A DNA stretch of 47,716 bases from Methanobacteriota archaeon. Its GTDB lineage: Archaea > Thermoplasmatota > Poseidoniia > Poseidoniales > Thalassarchaeaceae. The number at the start of each line of letters is the position of its first letter. Positions within the stretch are counted from its first letter, which is position 1. The notes beneath the pieces were generated by a model that searched no databases, had not been told where the DNA came from, and saw only the letters and a program-made list of their open reading frames with translations. The position numbers and the translations under genes were made by a program. The stretch spans positions 1-47,716 of the forward strand of contig JABIKU010000008.1 in assembly GCA_018654845.1 (NCBI GenBank), written 5' to 3'. This document shows, piece by piece, positions 862 to 44,243 of this stretch.

Positions 862-3800
862 TCAGTCCAAACCAGGTGGTGGTGGAGGCACGTCACCCGC
901 ATTATCATACTGCTGAGGGGGCTGTTTTGTAAGTTCAGATTTTGGTTCAAATCCAGGTGGTGGAAGTGGAGGAGGAGTTGGGCTAATTACAGGCTCCAAT
1001 CCAGGTGGTGGTGGTGGTGGTGCAGTTTCGTCAGAATCCATTCCAAAATCTATTTCTTCGTCGGCAGAAATATCATCATATTCACTAATATCATCATCTT
1101 GATCGAGATAGATAATATCTGAGTTTTCATCTTTCTTTTTTGACGACATGAAAATAGCTCCTCCGATTCCTCCTAAGATTATCAATAGGGTTCCAATTAC
1201 CATAATCGGATGCAAACTTATTTTATCTCCAATTGACAAAGGGTTAGCATTATCTCCCAAACCATCATTGTTTCGATCTTGCCACTCATTAGGGTCTAGA
1301 GGGAATGCATCGGAATTGTCAAGGATTCCGTCTCCATCGTCATCCTCGTCCATCGTATTACAGGATTCATCCCCATCAATGTCATCAGGAATTGAATTGT
1401 CTGCGAGTGCATCAGTGCCGCAAATCGCCTCGATATTGTCATACCAACCATCACCGTCATCATCGAAATCAGCATTGTTACCAGTACCATCCCCATCGGT
1501 ATCGTATTGCTCGGTTACATCGAACTGGAATGCATCGTCCCAATCGAGGACGCCGTCATTGTCATCATCTTCATCGGTAGAGTCACAGAACATATCTCCA
1601 TCGTAATCGACAGGTATTGAGTTAGCATCGAGAGAATCTGTACCACAATTTGGCTCATCTGCATCTAGCCAGCCATCCCCATCATCATCAGCATCGTTAT
1701 TATTTCCGATACCATCACCATCGGTATCATCCCATTCAGCATCATCAAAGGGGAAATCATCAGATAAATCAGGAACTCCATCGTTGTCGTTATCGGTGTC
1801 GACAATATTGCAAATGTGATCACCGTCAGCATCGTCAGGCATCGAAACAGGATCCATTTGATCGGATCCACACTCGACCTCATCGACATCGAGCCAACCA
1901 TCATTATCGTCATCAGGATCTGAATTGTCTCCAAGGTCGTCTCCGTCGTTATCTGCCCATTCATATACATTCAATGGGAATAAATCGTAGTCATCGCCGA
2001 CATTATCGCCATCATCATCCATGTCGGCATTATTTCCAGTGCCATCATCATCAGTATCGAACCATTCTAATGGATCCTCGGGGAAAACATCGGCTGCATT
2101 ATCGTAGCCATCGCCGTCGATATCTGGGTCGAGCGCATCGCAAATACCATCGGAATCCATATCTGCAGGCAGGTCGTACCAATCGAGAGGATCTGAGCCA
2201 CAATTTATTTCAGTGTCATCAGTATAAGCATCGCCATCATCATTCGTATCGGCATTATTCCCTATGCCATCATTATCACTATCGAGCCATTCTTGGTCGT
2301 TATGAGGGAAATCATCGGAATCATCTGGCCAACCATCGTCATCGTCATCAGCATCAATTGCATCACAGTCCCCATCACCATCAGTATCGATTGGAGTGTC
2401 GAATCTATCGAGCGGATTCGTTCCACAGAGATTTTCCGTCGTGTCGTTCCAACCATCGTTATCATCGTCTTCATCGGCATTATCACCGATGCCGTCATTA
2501 TCGTAATCTGCCCATTCAGCCGAATTGTAAGGAAAAGGATCATTTCCATCATCTACCCCATCATTATCATCATCTTGGTCAAGCGCATCACAAGTTCCGT
2601 CACCGTCAAAGTCATCGGGTACACTATTGGCATCATCTGGATCAGAGCCACAATCTGTCTCATTCGTATCCCAATGGCCATCACCATCAGAGTCGAGAGA
2701 AAAAAACCACCAAGACATTCCATAATAGCCCTCACCTGAGGTTGCACGAACTTGAACTAAAACATCCATCCCCTCTACAATCATTCCAGGATAAGTACCG
2801 GAACCGTTTGAGGTGACGTGTTCTGGATTATTGGTGCTTGAATAATCAATCGTATTAGTCTGATTGTCCGCTAGAATGACTTGGAAATCTACTTCTGTAG
2901 AATTAAACCATACCGAAACTGCAACTCCATAGCCCAAAGGCACAGTTGTCTGATAGTTATCATTAAGATCATTATTTAATGACCCCCATCCAGTGTAGCT
3001 ATTATTTGCTGAAACCGTGTTTATCGTCAAATTAGTGGGATTCAGGTAGTCATTAGAGGCATCGCCGCCAGTTCCTGCATCATTCTGATTATATGCAGGT
3101 AGTCCTGATGTCGAGAAAAGTTCGAGAGTTAAATTATACCATCCAGGTGCACTTGAACCCCAATCATCAACCTGCAAATAAACAATAGTGCCACCCACAT
3201 TTGTGCCATTACTCGCAACATTTTCAGGTTGCGAACCAGTAAATGCAATATCAATTTGAGTGCCATTTGAATCATATAACCACATGTCAAAATCAGCAGA
3301 GCTAAGATGAATCATCTCAATCATTATACCATGATTTTGTGGAATAGACATAGCAAACCAGTCTATATCATTAACAGATGAAAGATTTGCCTGATAAGTA
3401 GTATTAGTTGCAGTAATATTGAGTGCATTAGCCATTGTACCTGGTGCATCTTGGCAACTTCCTGCATCATTATTGGTACAATTTCCGCCGCCGCCGCCGC
3501 CGCCACCGCTGCCAGTAGAGAATATCCAAATTTGCATAGTGTATTGACCAGTTCCACTACCTGACCAATATTGTACGCGAATATAGACTTGTGTTCCACC
3601 GACTGATGTTCCATTCGATGTGACATCATCAATGCTCGATGATGAAAAACTATCATCGATAGTATTACCTGTAGCATTATAGAGGTACAAATCAAAATCA
3701 AAACCACTAGGAGAGGTTAATTGGACAGCGATTCCGGTATTTGCAGACATATTGATGCCATAGTAATCATCGGAATCGCTAGATGATACATTGCCATAAT

Positions 3801-3951
3801 AAGTTCCATTCGTAGCTGTCAAATTCGCTGCAGTAGAAGTCGTACTTCCCGCATCCCCGCCAGTTCCAGCATCATTTCCTAAGGCAGGAATCGCGAATGA
3901 CGAAACTACCAACATTGTAACAATCAATCTTGCACCCATGCGAGAGTTCAT
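862..3951 (-). CDS. Membrane-anchored surface protein with PPC-like domains, Asp-rich Ca-binding repeats and poly-Pro tail
   Basis: This 1029-residue protein has a signal peptide (about 1-25) and three N-terminal beta-domains. Each is introduced by an NDAG-type motif and carries FDxxLY-type cores, as in bacterial pre-peptidase C-terminal (PPC) domains. A linker of eight glycines follows the first domain. Residues about 420-900 are thrombospondin type-3-like DxDxDG repeats, which bind calcium in known families. One transmembrane helix lies at about 917-935, followed by Lys residues and a 90-residue acidic cytoplasmic tail. The tail has three proline motifs ending PPG(L/F), at about 978-985, 993-1001 and 1022-1028. 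The likely role is a calcium-stabilised stalk or adhesin on the cell surface; no catalytic domain is visible. Topology is confident and function is not. Confidence 0.88.
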   Translation of the reverse strand: MNSRMGARLIVTMLVVSSFAIPALGNDAGTGGDAGSTTSTAANLTATNGTYYGNVSSSDSDDYYGINMSANTGIAVQLTSPSGFDFDLYLYNATGNTIDDSFSSSSIDDVTSNGTSVGGTQVYIRVQYWSGSGTGQYTMQIWIFSTGSGGGGGGGGNCTNNDAGSCQDAPGTMANALNITATNTTYQANLSSVNDIDWFAMSIPQNHGIMIEMIHLSSADFDMWLYDSNGTQIDIAFTGSQPENVASNGTNVGGTIVYLQVDDWGSSAPGWYNLTLELFSTSGLPAYNQNDAGTGGDASNDYLNPTNLTINTVSANNSYTGWGSLNNDLNDNYQTTVPLGYGVAVSVWFNSTEVDFQVILADNQTNTIDYSSTNNPEHVTSNGSGTYPGMIVEGMDVLVQVRATSGEGYYGMSWWFFSLDSDGDGHWDTNETDCGSDPDDANSVPDDFDGDGTCDALDQDDDNDGVDDGNDPFPYNSAEWADYDNDGIGDNADEDDDNDGWNDTTENLCGTNPLDRFDTPIDTDGDGDCDAIDADDDDDGWPDDSDDFPHNDQEWLDSDNDGIGNNADTNDDGDAYTDDTEINCGSDPLDWYDLPADMDSDGICDALDPDIDGDGYDNAADVFPEDPLEWFDTDDDGTGNNADMDDDGDNVGDDYDLFPLNVYEWADNDGDDLGDNSDPDDDNDGWLDVDEVECGSDQMDPVSMPDDADGDHICNIVDTDNDNDGVPDLSDDFPFDDAEWDDTDGDGIGNNNDADDDGDGWLDADEPNCGTDSLDANSIPVDYDGDMFCDSTDEDDDNDGVLDWDDAFQFDVTEQYDTDGDGTGNNADFDDDGDGWYDNIEAICGTDALADNSIPDDIDGDESCNTMDEDDDGDGILDNSDAFPLDPNEWQDRNNDGLGDNANPLSIGDKISLHPIMVIGTLLIILGGIGGAIFMSSKKKDENSDIIYLDQDDDISEYDDISADEEIDFGMDSDETAPPPPPPGLEPVISPTPPPLPPPGFEPKSELTKQPPQQYDNAGDVPPPPPGLD
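1245..2700 (-). repeat. Coding repeat array: TSP3-like Asp/Asn/Gly units
   Basis: These degenerate repeats lie inside the surface-protein gene. The protein unit runs roughly Glu-x-x-Cys-Gly-(Ser/Thr), then a Pro-Asp-Asp turn, a second Cys in a DGDxxCD segment, and DxDxDG loops ending in a Phe-Pro...Glu-Trp spacer. Six Cys-Gly-(Ser/Thr) starts can be counted, and one unit between the third and fourth has an extra Phe-Pro/Glu-Trp segment. At DNA level the array is rich in cat/gat trinucleotides. That explains the long His-rich reading frame on the opposite strand. Confidence 0.85.
3485..3508 (-). repeat. Trinucleotide run coding a poly-Gly linker
   Basis: A run of CCG-type triplets (plus-strand reading) encodes eight consecutive Gly residues between the first and second extracellular domains of the surface protein. 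Gain or loss of triplets would change linker length without a frameshift. Confidence 0.8.
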
Positions 3952-17284: not shown

Positions 17285-20200
17285 TCATTCTACAATCGCA
17301 TCTAAGACTGCCGAGACTTCAAGCGCTCCTGAATCATCATAGTCTAACCAAGACCCTTTGCCCATTAGCCTCGAAGCAACTTCACGCTGAGCCACAATAA
17401 TTGATGGTAGTAGAATCGAACTTGTCAGCAGTGCGAGAATCAGTAAAGACATCATTAGAGTGAAGAAATTCTGCAGACCAGGGATCGCCACGAAAAGTCC
17501 CGCAGCAAGGCCAGCACAAGTAGTTGCAGTCGTCTCGAAAATAGTCTGACCCGTTCGTGCAACAGCCTTGACGATACCAGCAGGAGTTTCGCCTTCGTCC
17601 TTAATTCGGTCAATAATATGAATCGAATCATCAACCCCAATTCCGAAAACGATTGTACCTACCATAGCGGTGAACACATTGACATTCACCGAACCTCCTT
17701 TCATCAGAAGGGGTTGCCAGAGCACTACAACTGCAACGGCTGTCATTGTGAAAAATGCAAGTCGAGGAGAGCGGAATAAAATCGCCATCGTGAATAAGAG
17801 AATTATCATAGTTGCAATCGTAGTTTCACTCTGAGCCTCATGAATTCCAGCGTTTATATCAATTGATACAGGGAGACCACCCGTAAGTAGAGAATTGTAA
17901 ACACCATCGATTCCAAGTGCAGTGCATGTCCAAGCAGTAGTACATTTTTCATCGCCAGCAAGAATATCATCAATAGCATCTCTGTACACAGTTGCATTAC
18001 CTAAATTGATGTAAGGTTGGTTTGCATAAACTAGAGTTTTTGTTTCGCCGCTTCCCTCATCTTTGTTCATCAGCATCGAGCGAACTTCGGGAGAAAGGGT
18101 ATCGAAAGCGATGTTCACCATATCGTTCCTACTGGTTGACGCATATGCCCAACAATCCGGCCTCAGCGGGTCACTCGAATGCTCCCAACACTCATCATGA
18201 AGAATCTCCCAAAGGCTTCTATCATATATTTCGACACCTGAAAGATTGAGATCAACATGTATTGCTTTCAGGATATTGACCAGACTTATTGTCGATGTTT
18301 CAGGAACGTTATCGATATGAATTTGAATCTCTTCAATAGAATCGAGGATTGGTAAATCACGTATCGGAGCGGTATCATTGTGTGAACCACGATCGGTTGC
18401 ATCGATGATGAACATGTTAGTTTGACCGCCCTCGAAAACTATACTATATTCACGAAGAGCTTCGTAAGAGGATAAACCAGGGGGAACTTCATCAGAGGAC
18501 CCGGTAATTTCTTGTCCTAAGGTTTCTGAAAGAATACTGATTCCAAAAATTGTAACAACTGAAGTAACGATTAGAACTAGTAGAGTTGTTTTCACAGGAA
18601 TCTCACCAATTTTATCCCAAAGTTTGTCGAATGCTTTTGTTTGTCCCTTACGGTACTTGAAAATTTCAACAAGAGCTGGAACCATTAACATCGAAAGAAT
18701 AAATGTCGTCATTATTCCTATAACTAGTGTAATTCCAACCGTCCTCATCGGTGCAATTGGCACCAACATCGGCCACATCAATACGCTAAATCCGATAATC
18801 GTTGTAAGGGCAGAAAGGAAAATTGCGTGGCCAGTGGTCATCACCGCTCGAACAGTTGCAGTCAAGCTGATGAGTGGATCCCAAGGGTCGATATCTTCAG
18901 TCTTCAGACCGTCTCGATTAGCCATCCAGGCTTTTTCGAGTCTTTCTTCGATTAATTCAACACGATTTTCTTCAATTCGATTCGTCAGATGCAACGAGTA
19001 ATCAACGCCCAGTCCGACAAGAATCGGCCCCGCGGAGATAATCATCGGTGTCAGCATAATATCCGCAATCACTGTCATTCCGAAAGTAATAGCTAAACTC
19101 ATCGCAATTGGTAATCCACAGATGACGATAACTTTTGGATTTCGGTGGAGAATCAACATTGTCAGCAAAACGAGAACCCCACTTATCGGTAACATTGTAT
19201 CAACGAGTTCAAGGTAAATTGCATCGGACACATCATGCAAAACAGGAGTGAGTCCAGTTATGGTTATCGCTTGACGGTCGGGAATAACATCAAGGCGTTC
19301 TGAATCCATTGTCGAGACTGGATTATTGTATGTCCGATGGCATAATTCGCAATCGGATAGGCTTGATTCGTCATATATTAACCGTTGAGCATAACGAATG
19401 AAAGCTCGATGATCCTGAATTTGCCCACTAGGATTCTCATCTGTTATTCCTTTCGGGTCATCTCTTGACGGAACATCGGTTCCTTCCATCTCGAAGATCA
19501 TGCCCATGACAATTGCACCGGTATCCCAAACTCCATCTCCATTGGTATCTCGCACAAAACTAGAGAGAAGAGAATTAGTTTGGTCGACCAAATTATCGAC
19601 TCGATTCTGGTCGTCTGGAATTGAATATCCTTCGTATGGGTTTAACTGAGCCAATGCACACTCGTCCTGTTGACCTGTTGGTAATCCATATTTTTCAACA
19701 GCACAATTAAAACGATAACTTGATGAATTCGCTTCTTTGAGAATTTGCGCCGGAGAAAGAATCCAAATTATTCCATCCTGAGTTCCCCGGTCATTTTTTT
19801 GTTCGTCCAAACCGGATTGATAGCCACCATTACCACTATTTTCATCATCCCCTTCAAGCCAAGACATCTGTTGTAAAATATTCACATCAGTAATATTTTC
19901 ATTACCGTGCTCAGCGCCGGTTGCAGCGTTATTTGTTTGAACATAAAGAATGAAAATATCCGTCGCCCAAGGTGCTTCCCTGACCCGTAACAATAATTCG
20001 GTCGAATCAGCTCCATCAGGTAAATAAATTTCAACATCACCGTTAATCTGATGCTCGAAATCAAGTGCATCACGACCAATTATCGCGGTAGTAAGTAATA
20101 GCAAGGCAATGATGAATCCAGGACTACGTAGAACAGCGGAATAAGCTAATTCAGCAGTCCGCACCGATACTGCTTCTGCAGTTTCACCTAAATCTTCTAG

Positions 20201-20383
20201 CAGTTGTGCTCCCGTATCGAAAGCATCGCCAATTGGGCTATTCAATACCTTATTACGAGTGGAGATAACAGTATCCCGAAATGGACCTAAACGTTCGTAG
20301 AATCTCTCCCAGAAGATGACTTCGTCATCCTGGTCGAGGGCGACGCGTAACACGTCATCGCTATCGACTTCGCCTTCGGTCAC
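17285..20383 (-). CDS. RND/MMPL-family membrane transporter-like protein
   Basis: The 1032-residue protein has the duplicated RND plan: a first helix near 88-105, a large extracytoplasmic loop, a five-helix block, then the same order again. Each half carries the sterol-sensing/RND signature, GLGVDYSLHL near residue 455 and GIGVDDSIHI near 911, with Asp residues typical of proton relay. It has a 60-residue cytosolic N-terminus. The first loop contains a calcium-loop-like DTNGDGVWD segment near 276 and paired Cys (CELC). MMPL and HpnN relatives move lipids or hydrophobic molecules; the substrate here is unknown. Its 3' end faces the RNase P RNA, about 40 bp away. A second, shorter paralog lies at 28454-31003. 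Confidence 0.9.
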   Translation of the reverse strand: MTEGEVDSDDVLRVALDQDDEVIFWERFYERLGPFRDTVISTRNKVLNSPIGDAFDTGAQLLEDLGETAEAVSVRTAELAYSAVLRSPGFIIALLLLTTAIIGRDALDFEHQINGDVEIYLPDGADSTELLLRVREAPWATDIFILYVQTNNAATGAEHGNENITDVNILQQMSWLEGDDENSGNGGYQSGLDEQKNDRGTQDGIIWILSPAQILKEANSSSYRFNCAVEKYGLPTGQQDECALAQLNPYEGYSIPDDQNRVDNLVDQTNSLLSSFVRDTNGDGVWDTGAIVMGMIFEMEGTDVPSRDDPKGITDENPSGQIQDHRAFIRYAQRLIYDESSLSDCELCHRTYNNPVSTMDSERLDVIPDRQAITITGLTPVLHDVSDAIYLELVDTMLPISGVLVLLTMLILHRNPKVIVICGLPIAMSLAITFGMTVIADIMLTPMIISAGPILVGLGVDYSLHLTNRIEENRVELIEERLEKAWMANRDGLKTEDIDPWDPLISLTATVRAVMTTGHAIFLSALTTIIGFSVLMWPMLVPIAPMRTVGITLVIGIMTTFILSMLMVPALVEIFKYRKGQTKAFDKLWDKIGEIPVKTTLLVLIVTSVVTIFGISILSETLGQEITGSSDEVPPGLSSYEALREYSIVFEGGQTNMFIIDATDRGSHNDTAPIRDLPILDSIEEIQIHIDNVPETSTISLVNILKAIHVDLNLSGVEIYDRSLWEILHDECWEHSSDPLRPDCWAYASTSRNDMVNIAFDTLSPEVRSMLMNKDEGSGETKTLVYANQPYINLGNATVYRDAIDDILAGDEKCTTAWTCTALGIDGVYNSLLTGGLPVSIDINAGIHEAQSETTIATMIILLFTMAILFRSPRLAFFTMTAVAVVVLWQPLLMKGGSVNVNVFTAMVGTIVFGIGVDDSIHIIDRIKDEGETPAGIVKAVARTGQTIFETTATTCAGLAAGLFVAIPGLQNFFTLMMSLLILALLTSSILLPSIIVAQREVASRLMGKGSWLDYDDSGALEVSAVLDAIVE

Positions 20384-28336: not shown

Positions 28337-28453
28337 AAGACGACCGGCCGACTCGCCACCCCTTTTTGAGGGCTTTCATTATTCACTAGGACACTACGTG
28401 TCCAATTAGCGGTCTAACTTTAACACCAGCAGTTAATCCGGAAGGTGATGGCG

Positions 28454-31003
28454 ATGAGTGACTCGGGTCAAGAAAGGCTAGCTGAAACCTTCGGCAAAGC
28501 TGCTCCTGCAATACTAATTGTCAGCCTTCTTCTCACCGTAATCACAGCCTCAGTTTTGCTACCACTACCGAGTTTCACTACCGAAATCGCCTCTTTCGCC
28601 CCAGAAAGCGAAGGAGATTCAGTTGAAATTGAAATGAATACCGTGATGACGACTTCGCCAAAAAAGATCTACGTTCAAGTTCGCCCCAATCAAGAGCAGG
28701 CTAATATTTTCGAAATTGCAGCCTTGCAACAGTTGGCTGATGATCTTGCTCATATCGAATCGTTATATGGTTTCGATATAAATTCTCAAATCAATATCGC
28801 CGACATCATCAATCGAGTTCTCGAAGAACGTGATGAACAGTCGAGAACCCTTGCAGATTTCGATGATTGGGATGATTTAATCAACGCAATCGTCGAAGAT
28901 GATGAAGATTGTAGCGATGCTGCAGGTAATGACCAAGCTATTGCTTCTGCTTCCTTTGCTTCATCTGCATTATTACATTCGGATTTTGAATTCGAGCACG
29001 TCTGCGAGTGGATTGAAACTCGAACAGGAGACTCAACACCGCGTGCATCAAGCACGATGTGGGTCATTGAAGTCAGTGGGGATTTGAGTAATCAAGAAAG
29101 GCAAGATTTAGCTGTTAACATTCGAGTGTTACTCAGCAATAAAATAGGGGGAAGTGAATCGTCTCTGCTAAATTATGGTGTTATTTCTGATGATTTGATT
29201 AGTTATGACATCAATGAATCAACCCTAGACAATATGGCTTGGCTTCTCGTTCTAGCAATTTTCGTTGTCGTTATTGTTCTCGCAATTGCTTTCCGTTCAT
29301 TCATGATGGTCGCCGCACCCTTACTCGGACTTTCAGCTGCTTTGATTTGGACTTACGGAACCATAACGATTCTTGGACGACCTTTTTCGATACTTGAAGT
29401 CGCCGTTGCACCAGTCGTCCTTGGGCTTGGTATCGACTATGCAATCCATCTTCAAAGAGGATATGAAGCAGCGAAATCTACTGCAAAAAGTCCCGCTCAC
29501 GCTTGGGTACGCTCTTTTTCGATTCTTCGAGTCGCCCTAACTCTAGCTGTGGTAACAACTGTTTCCGCTTTCCTTGCGAGTTCATTCTCACCCCTCCCAC
29601 CGCTTCGAACATTCGGACTTACCCTAGCTCTCGGCGTCGTTTCGGCCTTCCTCGCAAGCACAATCACAGTCGGTGCTTTACACGTCGTCGTCGAGAAAAC
29701 CACAGGAGCCTCGCCTCGACGTGGGCTCGAATTGACTCAACTGGCTCATCGAGTGACAAATTTTCAACGATATAATACTGCTCGAATACTTCTCATCGTC
29801 GCTATATTGACGACGAGTTCTGTAATGGTCGCTGTCAATAGACTCGATACAAGTTTTGAATTAACTGATTTCCTCTCAGAAAATGAAATGGAAATCATGT
29901 CGGTTCGTGGTGACATTTACGATTCATATGATGCTGCAGCATGGAAATCCGTGACATTATTGATCGAACCGAGTAATGGAGAAGAATCTCTAGTCGGCGA
30001 AAGAGACCTATTGCGAGGTTTGGAATTCTTTGACCATCGTATCGCGGGAATCCCTGAAGTCGTGAACCCTTCGGATACGAATTCAAAACGGCCATCTTAT
30101 GATGGATTATACCCTATTTTGCGTGATGCGATTGAAATTGACCCGGGTTTTGGTCAACTGCATCACCTTGGAATATTTGAAGGAGACTTAGGAGTTGTTG
30201 ACGGTTTTGAAGAAGGAGATGTCGCTGCAGCTGTAGCCTCATTATTACAAAACGACACTATCGGAGAACCTCTGCGCGGTCAAACATGGGCTGAACGAAC
30301 TTCGATGTACGCAGCCCTTACTGATGATGACGAATCACTTAGATATCTCAAGGTCAGAGTCGATGTCGTCCTCCAAACGAGTGAAGAAACATCGAATGTG
30401 GCAAGAGAGTTTGAACGTCAAGCTTTGATGTTGGAAATGGACGGATTAATTGGTGGTGATGTCCATATCACTGGAGATGTAATCGTTATCCACAGCATTT
30501 TTTCAGGTCTAGTAATTTCACAAGTTGAGTCGACGGCGATTAGCTTACTAGTCTCGATCGCAGTTCTTTTCGTTTTGACCAGACGTCTCGGCCAATCCCT
30601 AGTGGTTATTCTACCAGTTGGTCTTGCAGGAGCATGGGTGGTCGGTTCAATGGCAATTTTAGGGATGACGTGGAATGTTTTGACGATAATGATTACAGCA
30701 CTAACTATCGGTCTAGGCATCGATTATTCTATCCATGTTTGGAGAAGTTTCGAAGCAAATCGATTAAGTGGAATGGGGACTTGGTCAGCAATGCAAAATA
30801 TGTACGAAACTACGGGAACCGCTTTGCTGATGTCAGCAGGAACGACAATTTGTGGATTCTTGGTCTTACTATTATCACCAATTCCTGTGATTCAAGACTT
30901 TGGGGTCGTCAGCGCAATCTCAGTTTCTTTTTCACTAATTCTTGCATTATTTGTCCTACCTGGATTACTCGCTGCTGAAGTAAGAACTGGTAATTCCGAG
31001 TAA
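28454..31003 (+). CDS. RND/MMPL-family membrane protein
   Basis: ATG 28454 has an AGGTG site about 6 nt upstream and gives 849 residues; in-frame GTG and ATG starts lie 6-9 bp earlier. The duplicated RND architecture is clear: a first helix near 18-35, a loop to about 255, five helices with LGLGIDYAIHLQRGYE, a second loop, then five helices with LTIGLGIDYSIHVWRSFE. The Asp-Tyr pair in each half is the usual proton-relay feature. It is a shorter relative of the 17285-20383 protein, with a smaller first loop containing paired Cys (near 150 and 180). The substrate is unknown. Its end is 15 bp from a convergent gene. Confidence 0.9.
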   Translation: MSDSGQERLAETFGKAAPAILIVSLLLTVITASVLLPLPSFTTEIASFAPESEGDSVEIEMNTVMTTSPKKIYVQVRPNQEQANIFEIAALQQLADDLAHIESLYGFDINSQINIADIINRVLEERDEQSRTLADFDDWDDLINAIVEDDEDCSDAAGNDQAIASASFASSALLHSDFEFEHVCEWIETRTGDSTPRASSTMWVIEVSGDLSNQERQDLAVNIRVLLSNKIGGSESSLLNYGVISDDLISYDINESTLDNMAWLLVLAIFVVVIVLAIAFRSFMMVAAPLLGLSAALIWTYGTITILGRPFSILEVAVAPVVLGLGIDYAIHLQRGYEAAKSTAKSPAHAWVRSFSILRVALTLAVVTTVSAFLASSFSPLPPLRTFGLTLALGVVSAFLASTITVGALHVVVEKTTGASPRRGLELTQLAHRVTNFQRYNTARILLIVAILTTSSVMVAVNRLDTSFELTDFLSENEMEIMSVRGDIYDSYDAAAWKSVTLLIEPSNGEESLVGERDLLRGLEFFDHRIAGIPEVVNPSDTNSKRPSYDGLYPILRDAIEIDPGFGQLHHLGIFEGDLGVVDGFEEGDVAAAVASLLQNDTIGEPLRGQTWAERTSMYAALTDDDESLRYLKVRVDVVLQTSEETSNVAREFERQALMLEMDGLIGGDVHITGDVIVIHSIFSGLVISQVESTAISLLVSIAVLFVLTRRLGQSLVVILPVGLAGAWVVGSMAILGMTWNVLTIMITALTIGLGIDYSIHVWRSFEANRLSGMGTWSAMQNMYETTGTALLMSAGTTICGFLVLLLSPIPVIQDFGVVSAISVSFSLILALFVLPGLLAAEVRTGNSE

Positions 31004-31839: not shown

Positions 31840-33123
31840 ATGTCAAGGGGATACATCGCACGCGACCCTCGAACCGGAAAACCGATTCGTAAAGGCCGAT
31901 CTGCGAAGGATTTGGATATCCGCTCACTATATCCAATTGAAGGAGTTTGGGCACGGATTCCAGTTTACGATATTTTGAAACTTGCTTCCGGTGAAATTCA
32001 GAACCTCGAACTTTCTTTGACTAATGGAGGTGGGTTCGCTCGACGCGATGATGGAATCAAAGCTCTCCATCGCGTCTACGAAAATTTGATTCCTCGGGCG
32101 CACGAAATTCTACTTGATGCTCTCGATGATGATGATGCATCAATTCGTATTGCTGCACTTGAAGTTTCACCTATATTTGCTCTAAAACAACATACGAATT
32201 TGATCCCTTGTCTATCAGATCGCTTGCTTGACGATAGCGATGACGTGCGTGCGATGGCAAGACGTTGCCTGAAATTGATGGCTCCTGTTTTCCCATCTGG
32301 GTGCGAAGAATTATTGCGCAGAGAATTACATGATACAAGAAAAGAACACCGTAATAACGCCTTCGAATCACTCCGTGAAACTGCCAAAGCATGGCCTGAA
32401 GTGGGTTGTTTACACATCGATGAATTGCTTCGAGAAGACGAACTTGATCTAAGACGTCGTAGTTCTAAAATTCTTAGAACAATCGCTACCAAAGGCGGCG
32501 CAGAAGGATGGGATTTAATCGGCTGGGCATTAGAAGATATCGATGCCCAAGTCAGACGTAATGGAGCTCAATGTTTGACGACATTAGCAAATTCTGAACC
32601 GAGCATTGCAATGATTTTGGTGGAGGGGGCGATTATGGATGACGATATCAAAGTTAGAAAATCAGTTATTCGCGCCCTCAAAAAACTCGACATGGAAAAT
32701 CCGCGTGTCACATCGATGATTCTAGACGGCGCACGAAGTCGAGATTACGAATTACGAAAGGCTTGTGTCGAACAACTTTCTATCATTATGTCCGGGGATG
32801 CACTAAGAGAAGCTGCAGGAGAACTCTTGCGACATGAAACTGCACCTGATCTACGTCAACGTCTGGGGGCCTTAGCGAGAGATGTCGAGCTTGATGGTAG
32901 CGAGGATGAGAAGAATAAGTATCTCGCTGCTGTCGATGTTGTCAAAGATGACATTATCGAAGAGGAGATGTTTCCAAAGAATGCGATTCCTGTAAATTTG
33001 GAGAAGGATTCAGATTCAGAAATCGACTATGAAAATATTCCACCACCACGTAGTGGTCTGGCCAAGCCGAAGGGTGAACATGAAATAGAGAAGGCAGGTC
33101 GGCGAGAACCTGAGGACTTATGA
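31840..33123 (+). CDS. HEAT-repeat protein
   Basis: The 427-residue protein has about eight helical HEAT-like repeats over residues 90-350, with recurring blocks such as DDDASIRIAALEVSP, DDVRAMARRCLKLM, DLRRRSSKILRTIA and DIKVRKSVIRALKKL. The N-terminus carries a SRGYIARDPRTGKPIRKG segment rich in basic residues. The C-terminal 70 residues are acidic and probably disordered, ending in proline and basic stretches. No enzymatic motif is seen; it is likely a scaffold or adaptor. Its stop overlaps the next gene's start by 4 bases (ATGA), so the pair should be translationally coupled. Confidence 0.82.
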   Translation: MSRGYIARDPRTGKPIRKGRSAKDLDIRSLYPIEGVWARIPVYDILKLASGEIQNLELSLTNGGGFARRDDGIKALHRVYENLIPRAHEILLDALDDDDASIRIAALEVSPIFALKQHTNLIPCLSDRLLDDSDDVRAMARRCLKLMAPVFPSGCEELLRRELHDTRKEHRNNAFESLRETAKAWPEVGCLHIDELLREDELDLRRRSSKILRTIATKGGAEGWDLIGWALEDIDAQVRRNGAQCLTTLANSEPSIAMILVEGAIMDDDIKVRKSVIRALKKLDMENPRVTSMILDGARSRDYELRKACVEQLSIIMSGDALREAAGELLRHETAPDLRQRLGALARDVELDGSEDEKNKYLAAVDVVKDDIIEEEMFPKNAIPVNLEKDSDSEIDYENIPPPRSGLAKPKGEHEIEKAGRREPEDL

Positions 33124-39821: not shown

Positions 39822-40373
39822 TTAATTCTCCAATTTTTCATTTACTAATTCAAATACTTCCTCGGCCGAAAGACCAGTAGCATCGATGATTAAATTATAC
39901 GGACTCATATCATCTAAATCGATACCATATAGAATTCGGTATCTATCCTTGTCATCCGATTGACGTGTTTCAGACTCAATTAATCGGGAATCAAAATCTC
40001 CACCTTCTCGAGTTTGAATTCTTCTTGCACATTCTTCAGGAGTGACCTTAACCCAAACTCGAAGACATTCGAGTTTGAGATTTGATGCCCACCATCCGCA
40101 CAGCCTACTCTCAACAATATCTGGTCCGTCGGCTGCAGTCAAATATTCCTTGAGTAAGATATCCAAGGACCTATCTACGTCTAAATCATCTTTGCATAGT
40201 TGACTGAATTGACCAACAGAAATTCCTCTGCGATCAGCTTCATTACGAAAAATTCCACCACCGTTCACATAATCCCAATTTCTTGCGAGTGCTAGCTTTT
40301 TGACTAGCGTGGATGTTCCGCTGCCAGGTGGACCACTAACGGTGATTTTAACCAGAACCTCACCTCCATTCAT
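39822..40373 (-). CDS. cmk: Cytidylate kinase
   Basis: A P-loop GPPGSGTST near the N-terminus and the archaeal-type sequence KITVSGPPGSGTSTLVKKLALARNW identify this enzyme, which phosphorylates CMP and dCMP. I give ATG 40373, but no ribosome site precedes it; a GTG at 40388 is also possible. The strong GGAGG (40363-40367) lies 7 nt before a CTG at 40355, which would start (M)VKITVSG, the family's normal beginning (177 residues). CTG is therefore a real candidate start. It overlaps the end of the DUF106 gene and is 2 bp from cbf5. Confidence 0.9.
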   Translation of the reverse strand: MNGGEVLVKITVSGPPGSGTSTLVKKLALARNWDYVNGGGIFRNEADRRGISVGQFSQLCKDDLDVDRSLDILLKEYLTAADGPDIVESRLCGWWASNLKLECLRVWVKVTPEECARRIQTREGGDFDSRLIESETRQSDDKDRYRILYGIDLDDMSPYNLIIDATGLSAEEVFELVNEKLEN

Positions 40374-41286
40374 GTCGGCAAAATTCACACCGCAACTTAC
40401 CCTTCGGAGTTCGCTTTACGGATTCTGAATCGCAATTAGGACAGACAGTTCCAGCCTTTGGTGGTGCTACCTGTTGGTTGCCACCACGACGTTGGTGATC
40501 TTGCTTTTGCACACCAGTTTTCCTCGGTCCTGCTCGTCGTCTTTGTCCTTGTCGAGTGCGATGGTCAGCCTTTGCCTTAGCTTTCTCATCCTCCAATAAG
40601 TGAAGAAGAGGTTCGGGGACCATTTCCCCAGCTAGTATGAGTGGATGTTTTCTAAATCGAAGTAATTTCAAGTGACGATCAACAATTCTTCCCAAAGGTG
40701 CTGACATCGAAATATATGTTGCAATCCAAGCAGGGAATATCCACATGACTCGATTATCGAATCCCCACATGGAAGACCAAGGGAGGCTGACATAACCAAC
40801 ACGAAATTCAAGAACAGAATTACCCATCCATGTGAAAATCGCCATAATAAAAATAATTGTGAACAACATCGGCTTCATCATTGCGCCTTGCATTTCCATT
40901 GTTTCGGGCATCATTTCCATCTGCAATCTTTGCATTTTATCGATTCTTGCTGTATCCCTAGAAACTCGAGCATCTTGCATTTGCTTACTGATTTGCTTAC
41001 TACGATGAGTATTATGAGCTTGTTTCACTGGATCCATGAATATTGAACGAATAATTGTGTTTACAACCATAATACTCGAACCTAGGATGAAAACAGTTGG
41101 GACGAAGTAAATTTTGTGGAAGGGTAATAGCGGTTCAATAATTGATCCAGCGCCAGCAGCAGCAGCAATTCGGATACTTGGAAAAGCCATCATCACCATC
41201 ATGATGAGTAGCATTCCGAACATAGGCAGCATTGCTGAACCCATTCCTGCGGGCTGTTGATTACCAGCCGGAGCACTACTCGCCAT
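40360..41286 (-). CDS. DUF106 (YidC/Oxa1/EMC3-superfamily) membrane insertase-like protein
   Basis: ATG 41286 (GGAG at 41296-41299) gives 308 residues; the ATG at 41292 adds two. There is an N-terminal hydrophobic helix, two-helix segments near 55-75 and 140-180, and an internal basic coiled region (KQAHNTHRSKQISKQMQDARVSRD). This is the layout of the archaeal DUF106 family, related to EMC3/TMCO1, which insert membrane proteins. A C-terminal Zn ribbon (about 284-308, CPNC...CEFC) is an extra feature preceded by a basic, Gln/Arg-rich linker. It is followed by cmk and cbf5, as in the archaeal ribosomal superoperon tail. Confidence 0.87.
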   Translation of the reverse strand: MASSAPAGNQQPAGMGSAMLPMFGMLLIMMVMMAFPSIRIAAAAGAGSIIEPLLPFHKIYFVPTVFILGSSIMVVNTIIRSIFMDPVKQAHNTHRSKQISKQMQDARVSRDTARIDKMQRLQMEMMPETMEMQGAMMKPMLFTIIFIMAIFTWMGNSVLEFRVGYVSLPWSSMWGFDNRVMWIFPAWIATYISMSAPLGRIVDRHLKLLRFRKHPLILAGEMVPEPLLHLLEDEKAKAKADHRTRQGQRRRAGPRKTGVQKQDHQRRGGNQQVAPPKAGTVCPNCDSESVKRTPKGKLRCEFCRHEWR

Positions 41287-41349
41287 GGCCATTCGCTCCG
41301 CCTGCCTTCAATGAACACTTCGGTAGTCGCCTACGGCGAATTTTCTTGT

Positions 41350-44118
41350 TCACTTGAACGAAAAACTGCAGACCGGACATATCGATTGGCCAATTTCTGC
41401 TTCAGAACCACAAATTGGGCAGGAATTATTCTGCTCGATTTTTTCAACTTTTTCCATCTCAATCGAATCATGTTCAGAATTATCATCTTCTACCAATTCG
41501 TTTTCTTCCGGTTCATCGAGATTTGTCGTTTCGTCTAATGTCTCGTCACTATTTTCATCAATGATAGACGTCTCTTCGACAGTAATTTCCAATTCAGATT
41601 CAACTACTCTAGGAGCAATTTCAATCGGTTTTGTGATTGGCGAAGAGTCCTTGATACCAATTATTGCACCCGGCTCAAGCCATTCAGGAATATTCGGTTC
41701 TTCATCGACCTCATCACCGAATGTTGCACCATGGAAATCTTGCGCGTCGGAAACCTTGTACTCAGCCTCGGTATCCCCTTGAATTTCATAGACTACTTCA
41801 ACACGCTCGCCTTTCTCAATTCGACCGATTTGCCAAGTCACCTTGATTCCGTCACGAGCAGATTCTTTTGTCGTCGAGATATCTCTTTCACCACTTATGG
41901 AAGATTTAACAGAAGAACTCTCGATTGAAAATGTTCCAGGTACAATATCGTGAAGTGCAAGATCTTTCAATGCACTATCTGAATTATTGTCAAACATCAA
42001 CAAAATTTCATATCTCCCGGGTCCTCCACCAGGGAATACTTCCTTGCCAGTACTTATCTTTCTACGACGGTGAACAACCTTGATTATCGGTGGCAATTCG
42101 ACGGTTCGGGTCGCCACTGGTCCAAATCGCTCCATGCTGAAGTCTGCTCGAATTGGAGCAGCTAACAATTCATTTTGAGGAGAAGGATCAGGTGCATGAA
42201 GAGGATAACGTATGATCATGGATTTACCCGGTTGCAAACCTAGTCGTGATGAGGTCCCGACGGTGATTCTTAGCGCATGACCAGGATTGTCAGGTGAAAT
42301 CAATTTTTCTTCAAGTTGGTTACCATTAATGATTTCAACTCGGTATTGATCATCACTGAGATCTGCACCCTCGATTTCAATCTGGATTTTATGGGTTAAT
42401 GGCGGTTGGAAAATGCCAGGTATATCATCGAGAAATCTCATTACATTTATCGAAGCTGAACCGGTATTTTCAATGGTTATCACGGCTTCAATATCTGATG
42501 GCACATAAGATTTAATTCGAGAAATATCATATCGTTTCTTGATTGTTGCATCGATAATCGCAAGTTTCTGTTCACTGATATCTACTACACCGTTTGAGTG
42601 TACTGAAACACGAGGTAAAATTGAGTACTTAACTTCCTGACTGAAACTAGGTTGATCTTCAGATTCTACCCGTTTCACCATAGACTCCCAACTGCCCTCT
42701 GGTGGTATGTCTTGACGAAGGTCAGACACATCTAGAATTGGAGCTTCTCGGCCTGCTAGTCGTACGGTAGCACCTGAAAGGAGAACGATGAAAGAAGATC
42801 GATTTTCGAAAACACATTTACAATGCCAAATTCCGGGACGGTCGTCTTCTTCTGCAACAACCCGAGAAAATTGCCGACCGGAACTAGTGACATTTTCAAA
42901 CTCAGTCCGGGATACAGTTGATTCGGCAGAATAGGACACTGCGGCGATACCAGCAGGTATTTTCTCAACTCCAGAGATTCTGACAAGAGGATTTAGAATG
43001 AGAGTCTTGATCTCACCTGTTGCCATTCTACCTATATCCCAAACTATCGTTGAGCCATCGACAGAATACTCAGAAGTCTCCGTTACTTCGAAACAATCGG
43101 GAAGAGTTCGGCGTAATTCAACATCATTCAAAGGGACATTGGCGATATTCTCAATATCGATCTCAATCTTAATTTCATGAGCGTTCGGTGATAGAACCAA
43201 AGATAGGCTAGGTTCTTGATCTCGTTCTGGTTCTGTGTCAATTTTTTCTTTTAGTACCAACATCCTAGGTCCATTCGAAGAATATGGGATAACAGTCTCT
43301 TCGGTTGCATCGAGTTCTCTAACGGTTACCGAACTACCGCCTAAATCTGTAGATTCGGTTTTTGCGAGAAGAACTTCGATATCCCAAGCTCGTTGCTTTT
43401 TACTAGGATTACGAAGAATTAACTCGCCTTCAATGGTTTGTCTTCGAACAGAACCATCGGGGTTGAGAGTTGATTCTTCGATTTCACTCAATGTGGCATG
43501 AAGTTTGTCGCCAGGAATTGCATCGACTTCTGTGGCCGGTCTAAGATGAGGCGAAGAAGATGAAGAGATCGATGCACCTTGAGGAGCCATCGAATCTAAT
43601 GCACTCGTGATATCTAGAATATCTTCTTCCTCTTCAGCAGGGTCTGCTAGTTCAGAATCAAAGGAATGATCGCCCCAAATATCGTCAGATTCAGAACCGC
43701 CCCCCTCACCGAATACTGAAAGCGAATCAGAGAGTATCTGCGTTTCTTCCTCTTCCTCTGAATTACTTGGCTCAGGAGTTGTTTCTAACCCAGGGGGCAT
43801 TGGTGGTGGTGCAGATGCAGAAACTTCGGAATTGGTTGAGAACGGATTGTTAGCCAAATCTTGTGTTTGTGGTTTTTCCGTAAATCCAGGTGGTGGCGGT
43901 GGCAATTCAGAAAGTCCAGGAGGTGGCGGTGGAGGTGAGAAAATTGGTTCTTCTGACTCACCCTTTAGTTCATCGATTTCTATTTCCTCGGAAAAATCAA
44001 TTTCTTTCTCTTCGAGAATCGAAGAACTAGGCACTTTCTCGTCATCAGAATTTGAAGATGGTGGAGGAGGCATTGGGAAACCCGGCGGTGGAGGCGGCGG
44101 GGGTAATTCATCGGACAT
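41350..44118 (-). CDS. Large cytosolic proline-rich beta-domain protein with Zn ribbon
   Basis: ATG 44118 (AGGTGA 7 nt upstream) is the start, 922 residues; a TTG six bases earlier is unlikely. No signal peptide or membrane helix is visible. Residues 1-200 are acidic and disordered with proline motifs at 6-14, 62-69, 73-79 and 104-111, most ending in PPG(L/F). The rest has repeated beta-sandwich-like segments (LRNPSKKQRAWDIEVLL, VNVMRFLDDIPG, YEILLMFDNNSDSALKDL). After an acidic stretch the last 23 residues form a Zn ribbon (Cys900/903 and Cys914/917). It is unrecognised as a whole. It sits directly upstream of the DUF106-cmk-cbf5 block, where many archaea have secY and adk. Confidence 0.82.
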   Translation of the reverse strand: MSDELPPPPPPPGFPMPPPPSSNSDDEKVPSSSILEEKEIDFSEEIEIDELKGESEEPIFSPPPPPPGLSELPPPPPGFTEKPQTQDLANNPFSTNSEVSASAPPPMPPGLETTPEPSNSEEEEETQILSDSLSVFGEGGGSESDDIWGDHSFDSELADPAEEEEDILDITSALDSMAPQGASISSSSSPHLRPATEVDAIPGDKLHATLSEIEESTLNPDGSVRRQTIEGELILRNPSKKQRAWDIEVLLAKTESTDLGGSSVTVRELDATEETVIPYSSNGPRMLVLKEKIDTEPERDQEPSLSLVLSPNAHEIKIEIDIENIANVPLNDVELRRTLPDCFEVTETSEYSVDGSTIVWDIGRMATGEIKTLILNPLVRISGVEKIPAGIAAVSYSAESTVSRTEFENVTSSGRQFSRVVAEEDDRPGIWHCKCVFENRSSFIVLLSGATVRLAGREAPILDVSDLRQDIPPEGSWESMVKRVESEDQPSFSQEVKYSILPRVSVHSNGVVDISEQKLAIIDATIKKRYDISRIKSYVPSDIEAVITIENTGSASINVMRFLDDIPGIFQPPLTHKIQIEIEGADLSDDQYRVEIINGNQLEEKLISPDNPGHALRITVGTSSRLGLQPGKSMIIRYPLHAPDPSPQNELLAAPIRADFSMERFGPVATRTVELPPIIKVVHRRRKISTGKEVFPGGGPGRYEILLMFDNNSDSALKDLALHDIVPGTFSIESSSVKSSISGERDISTTKESARDGIKVTWQIGRIEKGERVEVVYEIQGDTEAEYKVSDAQDFHGATFGDEVDEEPNIPEWLEPGAIIGIKDSSPITKPIEIAPRVVESELEITVEETSIIDENSDETLDETTNLDEPEENELVEDDNSEHDSIEMEKVEKIEQNNSCPICGSEAEIGQSICPVCSFSFK

Positions 44119-44243
44119 GACCAATTCACCTTCGGAAGTAAACAGTGACGTGCCTAAGATTGGTATAACTATTGCTCGTTCGACGTTGTCGGCTACAACA
44201 TCACAAACGAATGGTTGAAATCATAATGGAGGTGCGACGAATC

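Follow-up and report, generated by a model that had tools for sequence, protein, structure and literature searches.

A proline-glycine-hydrophobic motif recurs on surface-protein tails, FtsY and a protein with a predicted mu-homology-domain fold in Poseidoniales archaea

Introduction

Why would an archaeal surface protein carry repeated proline blocks on the short tail that follows its membrane helix, and why would the same blocks appear on a second, cytosolic protein encoded on the same contig? Proline-rich docking motifs with dedicated readers have mostly been studied in eukaryotes. The question is raised by a 47,716-nucleotide stretch of DNA from a member of the order Poseidoniales, which was analysed over its whole length and is referred to here as the window. 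A first-pass annotation made from the letters of the window had described the blocks in both proteins and had suggested a common binding partner, with EVH1, SH3, WW and profilin-like modules as the kinds of partner known for such stretches. Here we ask whether the motif exceeds chance, where else it occurs, what kind of protein the second bearer is, and which reader could serve them all.

Results

Two proteins of the window carry the motif

The gene at 862..3951 (minus strand) encodes a 1029-residue type I surface protein. Its translation, read by eye, runs from a signal peptide through beta domains and TSP3-like acidic repeats to one C-terminal membrane helix and a cytosolic tail; the match to PF18884 (TSP3_bac) is below the cut-off, and that to NF047638 is partial and far below the cut-off. 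The probable membrane helix (HPIMVIGTLLIILGGIGGAIFMS; 1144..1212, minus strand), assigned from sequence and hydropathy, is followed by KKK, and because a hydrophobic helix and this basic cluster precede the tail, the positive-inside rule would place the tail in the cytosol. The tail (...MSSKKKDENSD...DETAPPPPPPGLEPVISPTPPPLPPPGFEPKSELTKQPPQQYDNAGDVPPPPPGLD) is acidic and contains three proline blocks on the minus strand, namely PPPPPPGL(E) at 997..1020 (context PPPPPPGLEP), PPPLPPPGF(E) at 949..975 (context PPPLPPPGFEP) and, at the extreme C-terminus, PPPPPGL(D) at 868..888. Exact PPPPPG[LF] is found in two of the three, the middle block differing as PPPLPPPGF. The DNA and the translated open reading frame thus bear out the earlier description of three proline blocks ending in PPG(L/F) in an acidic tail after a membrane helix.

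The second bearer is a cytosolic protein of about 922 residues encoded at 41350..44118 (minus strand; open reading frame 41350-44124, likely start ATG at 44118). It consists of a proline-rich N-terminal arm, a core described below, a second Ig-like region, an acidic linker and a C-terminal four-Cys zinc ribbon (CPIC...CPVC; 41368..41421, minus strand), the last recognized by four cysteines that are invariant in the ortholog alignment and by weak zinc-ribbon Pfam matches. On the minus strand, the arm reads PPPPPPPGF at 44077..44103, PPPPPPGL at 43912..43935 and PPPPPGF at 43882..43902, which confirms that the motif recurs in this protein, and a variant, PPPMPPGL, at 43786..43809.

The motif exceeds chance in the window and in its genome

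Among the 32 window proteins taken, PPPP is found in these two only. In the surface-protein tail and the N-terminal arm of the second bearer, PPPG[LF] was observed six times. When tail and arm were shuffled, the mean was 0.016 and none of 20,000 trials reached six; with the proline runs held fixed and the other letters shuffled, it was 0.087, again with none of 20,000 trials reaching six. Because both shuffles never reached the observed count, the glycine and the hydrophobic residue belong to the motif besides the prolines. The proline codons in the motif places are mixed, which argues against simple repeat slippage.

PPP frequencies in archaeal proteomes are described as generally low in one published account (PMC4218817). 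In the DNA of the assembly to which the window belongs (1,546,747 bases in 37 contigs, 86% complete), PPPG[LF] has 13 matches, six of them within the window, versus two for the backwards control. Two matches (L001 and L013) fall in reading frames with lengths of 49 and 46 residues, probably not real genes; another (L012) is a single PPPGF in a probable secreted protein. The remaining bearers include the signal recognition particle (SRP) receptor FtsY (L011), with PPPPPPGFE, a small acidic protein (L008), with PPPPPPPGI and PPPPPGL, and a membrane protein (L009) with repeated PPPPGL.

The motif recurs on a few kinds of protein across the order

We then considered 60 genomes of the order, 37 of them from the window's own family, including its own genome, and 23 from the other family. 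PPPPPG[LF] occurs at 67 places in 23 of these genomes (21/37 of the own family, 2/23 of the other), versus two places for the reversed pattern. By hand classification, genes account for 64 of the 67 places: the N-terminal arm of the 41350-44118 protein family has 35 (including 11 on contig-edge pieces from G006, G018, G027 and G030, placed there on similarity), tails that follow a membrane helix have 20, FtsY has five, the small acidic protein three and a membrane protein (L024) one; the other three lie in short frames that are probably not genes.

The small acidic protein (L199:6131-6949, L266, L018) combines the motif with two similar C-terminal repeats. A Pfam scan of the own-genome copy at E<=0.1 gave no match; its gene adjoins that of the primase small subunit. 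The gene of the small acidic protein also overlaps a second gene, whose membrane-protein product matches RDD below threshold.

The TSP3-type surface-protein tails of genera g1 and g4 show the exact motif, those of g10 and g9 the related forms PPPPPPPPPGY and PPVPLGL, and the homologous tails of the other family read RGPP or KGPP. Orthologs of the 41350-44118 protein, searched by the core without use of the motif, were found in 48 of the 60 genomes, and the form of their arms drifts in the same manner, from PPPPPG[FL] in the window's clade to PPPPPGMDA in g2 and g5 and, in the other family, to PPAPPGMPPMPP or PPPPDLGG, with the form PPAPPGM. Since the other family reads PPAPPGM or PPPPDL in the arms and RGPP or KGPP in the tails, exact PPPPPG[LF] is a lineage feature. 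Of 30 ortholog loci (L114-L143), those with a recognizable core start were counted. Their arms have 285 PP ends, 90 of them with glycine next and 127 with L, F, M or I at the second position (background 16.8%), counts in which relatives are not independent, so that p-values overstate. Neither absence from orthologs nor a frequency at the level of shuffled sequence, either of which would have spoken against the motif, was found for the surface-protein tails or for the 41350-44118 family, and as read from these sequences the motif comes and goes as short linear motifs do. Across the 37 genomes of the own family, the association between the motif in the 41350-44118 family and the motif elsewhere is weak (9/4/7/17, p=0.036, a value that ignores relatedness and draft gaps, one arm being unreadable).

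These data bear on a reading in which the proline blocks would be stiff spacers, or a translation-pausing sequence of the polyproline kind that needs aIF5A, kept by composition and not for binding. Such a role would suit the varying length and number of proline runs among orthologs and the drift to PPAPPGM and PPTPPEA in other genera, but glycine at +1 and L, F, M or I at +2 are enriched far above composition, the mixed codons speak against slippage as the source, and the motif recurs in unrelated genes. We regard this reading as somewhat unlikely.

FtsY is a bearer in some genomes

FtsY was found in 51 matching genomes, of which 30 were given as loci (L144-L173), and 29 sequences were read, L162 being unreadable. 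Five of the 29, from genera g1 and g4, carry PPPPPPGFE at the same site; the other 24 are without it. An acidic segment with tryptophan, DEWDDF for example, is kept in most of the N-terminal arms read, whether or not they have the proline motif. Next to the own-genome FtsY gene lies a gene (L201:4809-5489) for a protein with a response-regulator receiver domain, a proline-containing stretch and a C-terminal hydrophobic helix.

The second bearer contains a core with a predicted mu-homology-domain fold

The first-pass annotation had regarded the 41350-44118 protein as unrelated to the surface protein; the shared motif stands, and the core of the protein is predicted to have the fold of a mu homology domain (MHD). 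With a 730-residue model (pLDDT 81.8), most Foldseek matches were integrins or other Ig-type entries, but delta-COP and AP-3 mu were among them as well. VIA placed residues 8-324 on AP2 mu2 across the whole domain with Z up to 14.5, its top row and several others being bacterial adhesin or pilin Ig domains that match other parts of the model. The 327-residue core (42559..43539, minus strand), folded alone with 47 sequences, reached pLDDT 93.9 and pTM 0.84. For this core, Foldseek placed a COPI chain first (E 2.2e-10), with AP or COPI entries in 46 of its 50 rows and integrins with poor superposition in the other four. Among the matches listed by VIA, 50 of 50 are AP-1, AP-2, AP-3, AP-4, COPI, SGIP1 or FCHo1, the delta chain of some COPI entries being inferred from residue numbers, and the rows listed against MHD entries show Z of 12.8-16.4 over 203-222 aligned residues, with rmsd 2.6-3.9 and 10-17% identity. 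On the strength of predicted structure and structural search, the core is an MHD fold, with two joined beta-sandwich subdomains over about 250 residues.

The signal in the sequence is weak. PF00928 (Adap_comp_sub) matches nine of 47 core orthologs at E<=0.5 (best E 1.5e-4), and the gathering cut-off was not reached wherever bits were shown, the one core match scoring 18.1 versus 31.6; a second match with bits (14.6, in L265) lies outside the core. DUF11 matches 45 of the 47 core sequences, and Alpha_adaptinC2 matches weakly in 17 of 27 longer ortholog sequences (best E 3.7e-4). A profile search of PDB sequences with the core found no MHD, and an NCBIfam scan of the whole protein gave no match at E<=0.01. 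Because of this weak sequence signal we name the predicted structure an MHD fold and not a member of the adaptor mu family, and refer to the protein as MHD-like.

A phylum-wide sample of 194 genomes contains the core in 64 (E<=0.001), comprising 37 of the order, ten with full-length homologues in families f11, f28 and f33, and 17 with short partial matches. No PPP occurs in the nine MHD-like frames read among the ten full-length homologues outside the order, one of the nine being cut by a contig end and the tenth homologue (L256) being without a read MHD-like frame, and the proline arm is absent from two g11 orthologs within Poseidoniales (L224, L225). Because the outside homologues are without PPP and these two without the arm, the core seems, as far as these sequences tell, to be older than the arm.

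The core might itself read PPPPPG[LF] on the tails, on FtsY or on its own arm, which would make the protein both bearer and receptor, in the manner of a self-regulating adaptor. Short motifs with an aromatic or hydrophobic anchor are ligands of MHDs, as titles of structure entries indicate (Y-based peptides, WxxPhi, WxW, DPF), and the family has both core and motif, with the core in 48 of 60 genomes. The age of the core tells against the idea, with nine outside frames that have no PPP and two orthologs without a proline arm; we regard the core as an unlikely reader. When the positions of the YxxPhi tyrosine pocket of mu2 are carried over by offset from the alignment end points, key residues may differ. 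As a separate lead, the DEWDDF-like segments of FtsY and the [WY]xxL of a tail-end module described below resemble Y/WxxPhi signals that are read by some MHDs.

Both bearers belong to one gene neighbourhood

In the window, the MHD-like gene sits between a gene for a GPN-type GTPase (PF03029) and one for an EMC3/TMCO1-type membrane protein (40360..41292, minus strand; PF01956, E=3.9e-14), and genes for cytidylate kinase and TruB/Cbf5 lie beyond the latter. Of 48 loci of the order, with flanks of differing length that in several cases reach a contig edge, 40 showed the EMC3-type neighbour and 30 the GTPase; neither was detected at ten loci outside the order, where the flanks are short. Because the EMC3-type gene adjoins the MHD-like gene and FtsY bears the motif, this setting points to membrane-protein handling.

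The surface-protein gene lies about 37 kb from the MHD-like gene. Among relatives of the own family, four (G001, G006, G009 and G031) have a gene for a surface protein with a Trp-rich tail end, described in the next section, on the same contig as the MHD-like gene and at a distance of 36-41 kb; in five other-family genomes (G037, G039, G040, G045 and G047) the distance, again within a single contig, is about 16 kb. The window genes between the two bearers keep the same order in G022 and G037. The gene order and spacing shared with relatives thus mark an old neighbourhood to which both bearers belong; the surface protein of the window is probably the counterpart of the proteins with the tail module, the module itself missing. 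The same recurring neighbourhood includes a HEAT-repeat protein (31840-33123) whose end carries IPPPRSGL. Two further window genes (17285-20383 and 28445-31003) encode large multi-pass proteins that resemble RND/MMPL-type transporters when read by eye.

Candidate readers do not follow the motif

Neither the GYF profile (PF02213) nor the GYF_2 profile (PF14237) exceeded its cut-off in any of the 60 genomes; these negatives are weak because no control genome exceeded either cut-off, and a diverged GYF fold could escape. Eight weak PF02213 loci (L044-L051, E 0.01-0.06), read by eye, were taken as chance, four resembling isoleucyl-tRNA synthetase and two being large secreted beta-domain proteins. 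A sub-threshold GYF_2 match (L052) lies in a frame that by eye resembles phosphoenolpyruvate synthase.

In four of the 60 genomes, which belong to the own family, WW domains exceed the Pfam cut-off (L053-L056, E 3.5e-9 to 1.8e-7), with two sites at the end of TSP3-type surface-protein tails in g5 and two in a coiled-coil protein in g8. Only two of the 23 motif-bearing genomes (G016 and G036) have such a domain, 21 are without it, and the own genome has none. The coiled-coil WW protein (L053) was rejected as a reader by its distribution: its relatives are found in 29 of 60 genomes, in g2, g3, g5, g8 and the other family but none in g1, g4, g6, g7 or g9-g11, and the motif-bearing genomes that have one are G016, G026, G036, G044 and G056 only.

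A different module, rich in tryptophan and tyrosine and about 40 residues long, ends surface-protein tails in 23 of the 60 genomes, one of these (L196) being a probable chance match. It has invariant L-P, G, Y, Y and W and a leading [WY]xxL (L174-L198 without L196). The linker before it carries acidic PPPPPG in some own-family genomes, and many other-family genomes have basic RGPP or KGPP there; in several g1 tails the module directly follows PPPPPGF. It was rejected as a universal reader because of its distribution: six of the 23 motif-bearing genomes have it, and the own genome, g4, g6 and g7 are without it. In the other family, the presence of the module and that of the MHD-like gene go together; this co-presence supports no claim, because in five genomes the genes are about 16 kb apart on one contig and shared draft gaps may explain it.

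The distribution of the motif is thus fitted by no candidate among GYF, GYF_2, WW and the Trp-rich module. That the reader is a WW domain, or a module like it, within tails of this class is very improbable: two of the four WW genomes have the domain at TSP3-type tail ends and bear the motif, and the Trp-rich module stands next to it in several g1 tails, but these modules occur in two and six, respectively, of the 23 motif-bearing genomes, neither is found in the own genome or, over the cut-off, in motif-bearing g4, g6 and g7, g8 has WW without PPPPPG[LF], and the WW likeness of the Trp-rich module is an impression. Hence the earlier interpretation divides: the motif is real, above chance and recurring, and WW, which had been named among its readers, is so far not supported, with a domain in 2/23 motif-bearing genomes.

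Discussion

Starting from what was computed (the motif with its enrichment and recurrence, the fold match to the MHD and the setting of the genes), we tentatively propose that PPPPPG[LF] is a multivalent docking motif common to the surface-protein tails, FtsY and the MHD-like protein, which would be joined via one reader, a reading that we hold to be quite possible rather than probable. More specifically, PPPPPG[LF](D/E) would be presented in several copies on disordered arms that face the cytosol, with a polyproline-II stretch ending in glycine, then a hydrophobic anchor, often followed by an acidic residue. Its bearers in the window's clade would be the tails of single-pass surface proteins, the arm of the MHD-like protein and, in some genomes, FtsY. 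One multivalent polyproline-II reader with a hydrophobic pocket, GYF-like in the manner of GIGYF, may grip these arms and thereby bring all three kinds of bearer together at the membrane. The presence of the same motif on several bearers suggests a common partner, and the motif peptides are a concrete bait set for finding it.

A broader extension, which we consider doubtful, is that Poseidoniales possess a primitive adaptor system in which an MHD-type protein would collect surface-protein tails and the SRP receptor near an EMC3-type insertase, through the proline-glycine-hydrophobic arms and their common reader. Searches of open PMC papers gave no report of an MHD adaptor for Thermoplasmatota, and nothing on WW domains in Marine Group II or on proline-rich sequences in Poseidoniales.

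Comparison with known systems

The best-matching known ligand class is the PPPG-hydrophobic class of GIGYF-type GYF domains, which the first-pass annotation did not list. As described in PMC10883280, the GYF domain of GIGYF1 binds PPPG-hydrophobic ligands with the hydrophobic residue in a pocket, its ligands including PPPGL of TNRC6C and PPPGM of SNRPB, and the motif of the window matches this published class by sequence. The two share a proline run, a glycine and a hydrophobic residue, and SNRPB, in the same description, has several copies on a disordered arm. The motif differs in being archaeal, in its acidic flank and in its longer proline run, and no GYF domain was over the cut-off in the 60 genomes. 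That it recurs on membrane-protein tails, on FtsY and on a protein with a predicted MHD fold suggests a use of the same docking logic by archaea beyond the Asgard group.

The core resembles the MHDs of AP mu subunits, delta-COP, FCHo1 and SGIP1 in a fold match over the whole domain; unlike them, the protein has a four-Cys zinc ribbon and a second Ig-like region, and it stays below the Pfam cut-off where bits were shown. According to the published description of archaeal ESCRT-linked proteins in PMC10936438, these show Ig-like similarity to adaptin appendages, in one case with a Zn ribbon. The weak Alpha_adaptinC2 matches in 17 of 27 orthologs recall them, whereas those proteins belong to ESCRT loci and the protein studied here is encoded beside an EMC3-type gene, with a core that matches the MHD. 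AP/COPI-like domains have been described from Asgard archaea (Eme et al., 2023; PMC10307638); the candidate counterpart here is in Thermoplasmatota instead. A family with this predicted fold, full-length in several families of Thermoplasmatota, would bear on the origin of the cargo-reading domain of AP and COPI and, if the adaptor role is true, would give archaea other than Asgards a cargo-handling relative of the AP/COPI medium chains.
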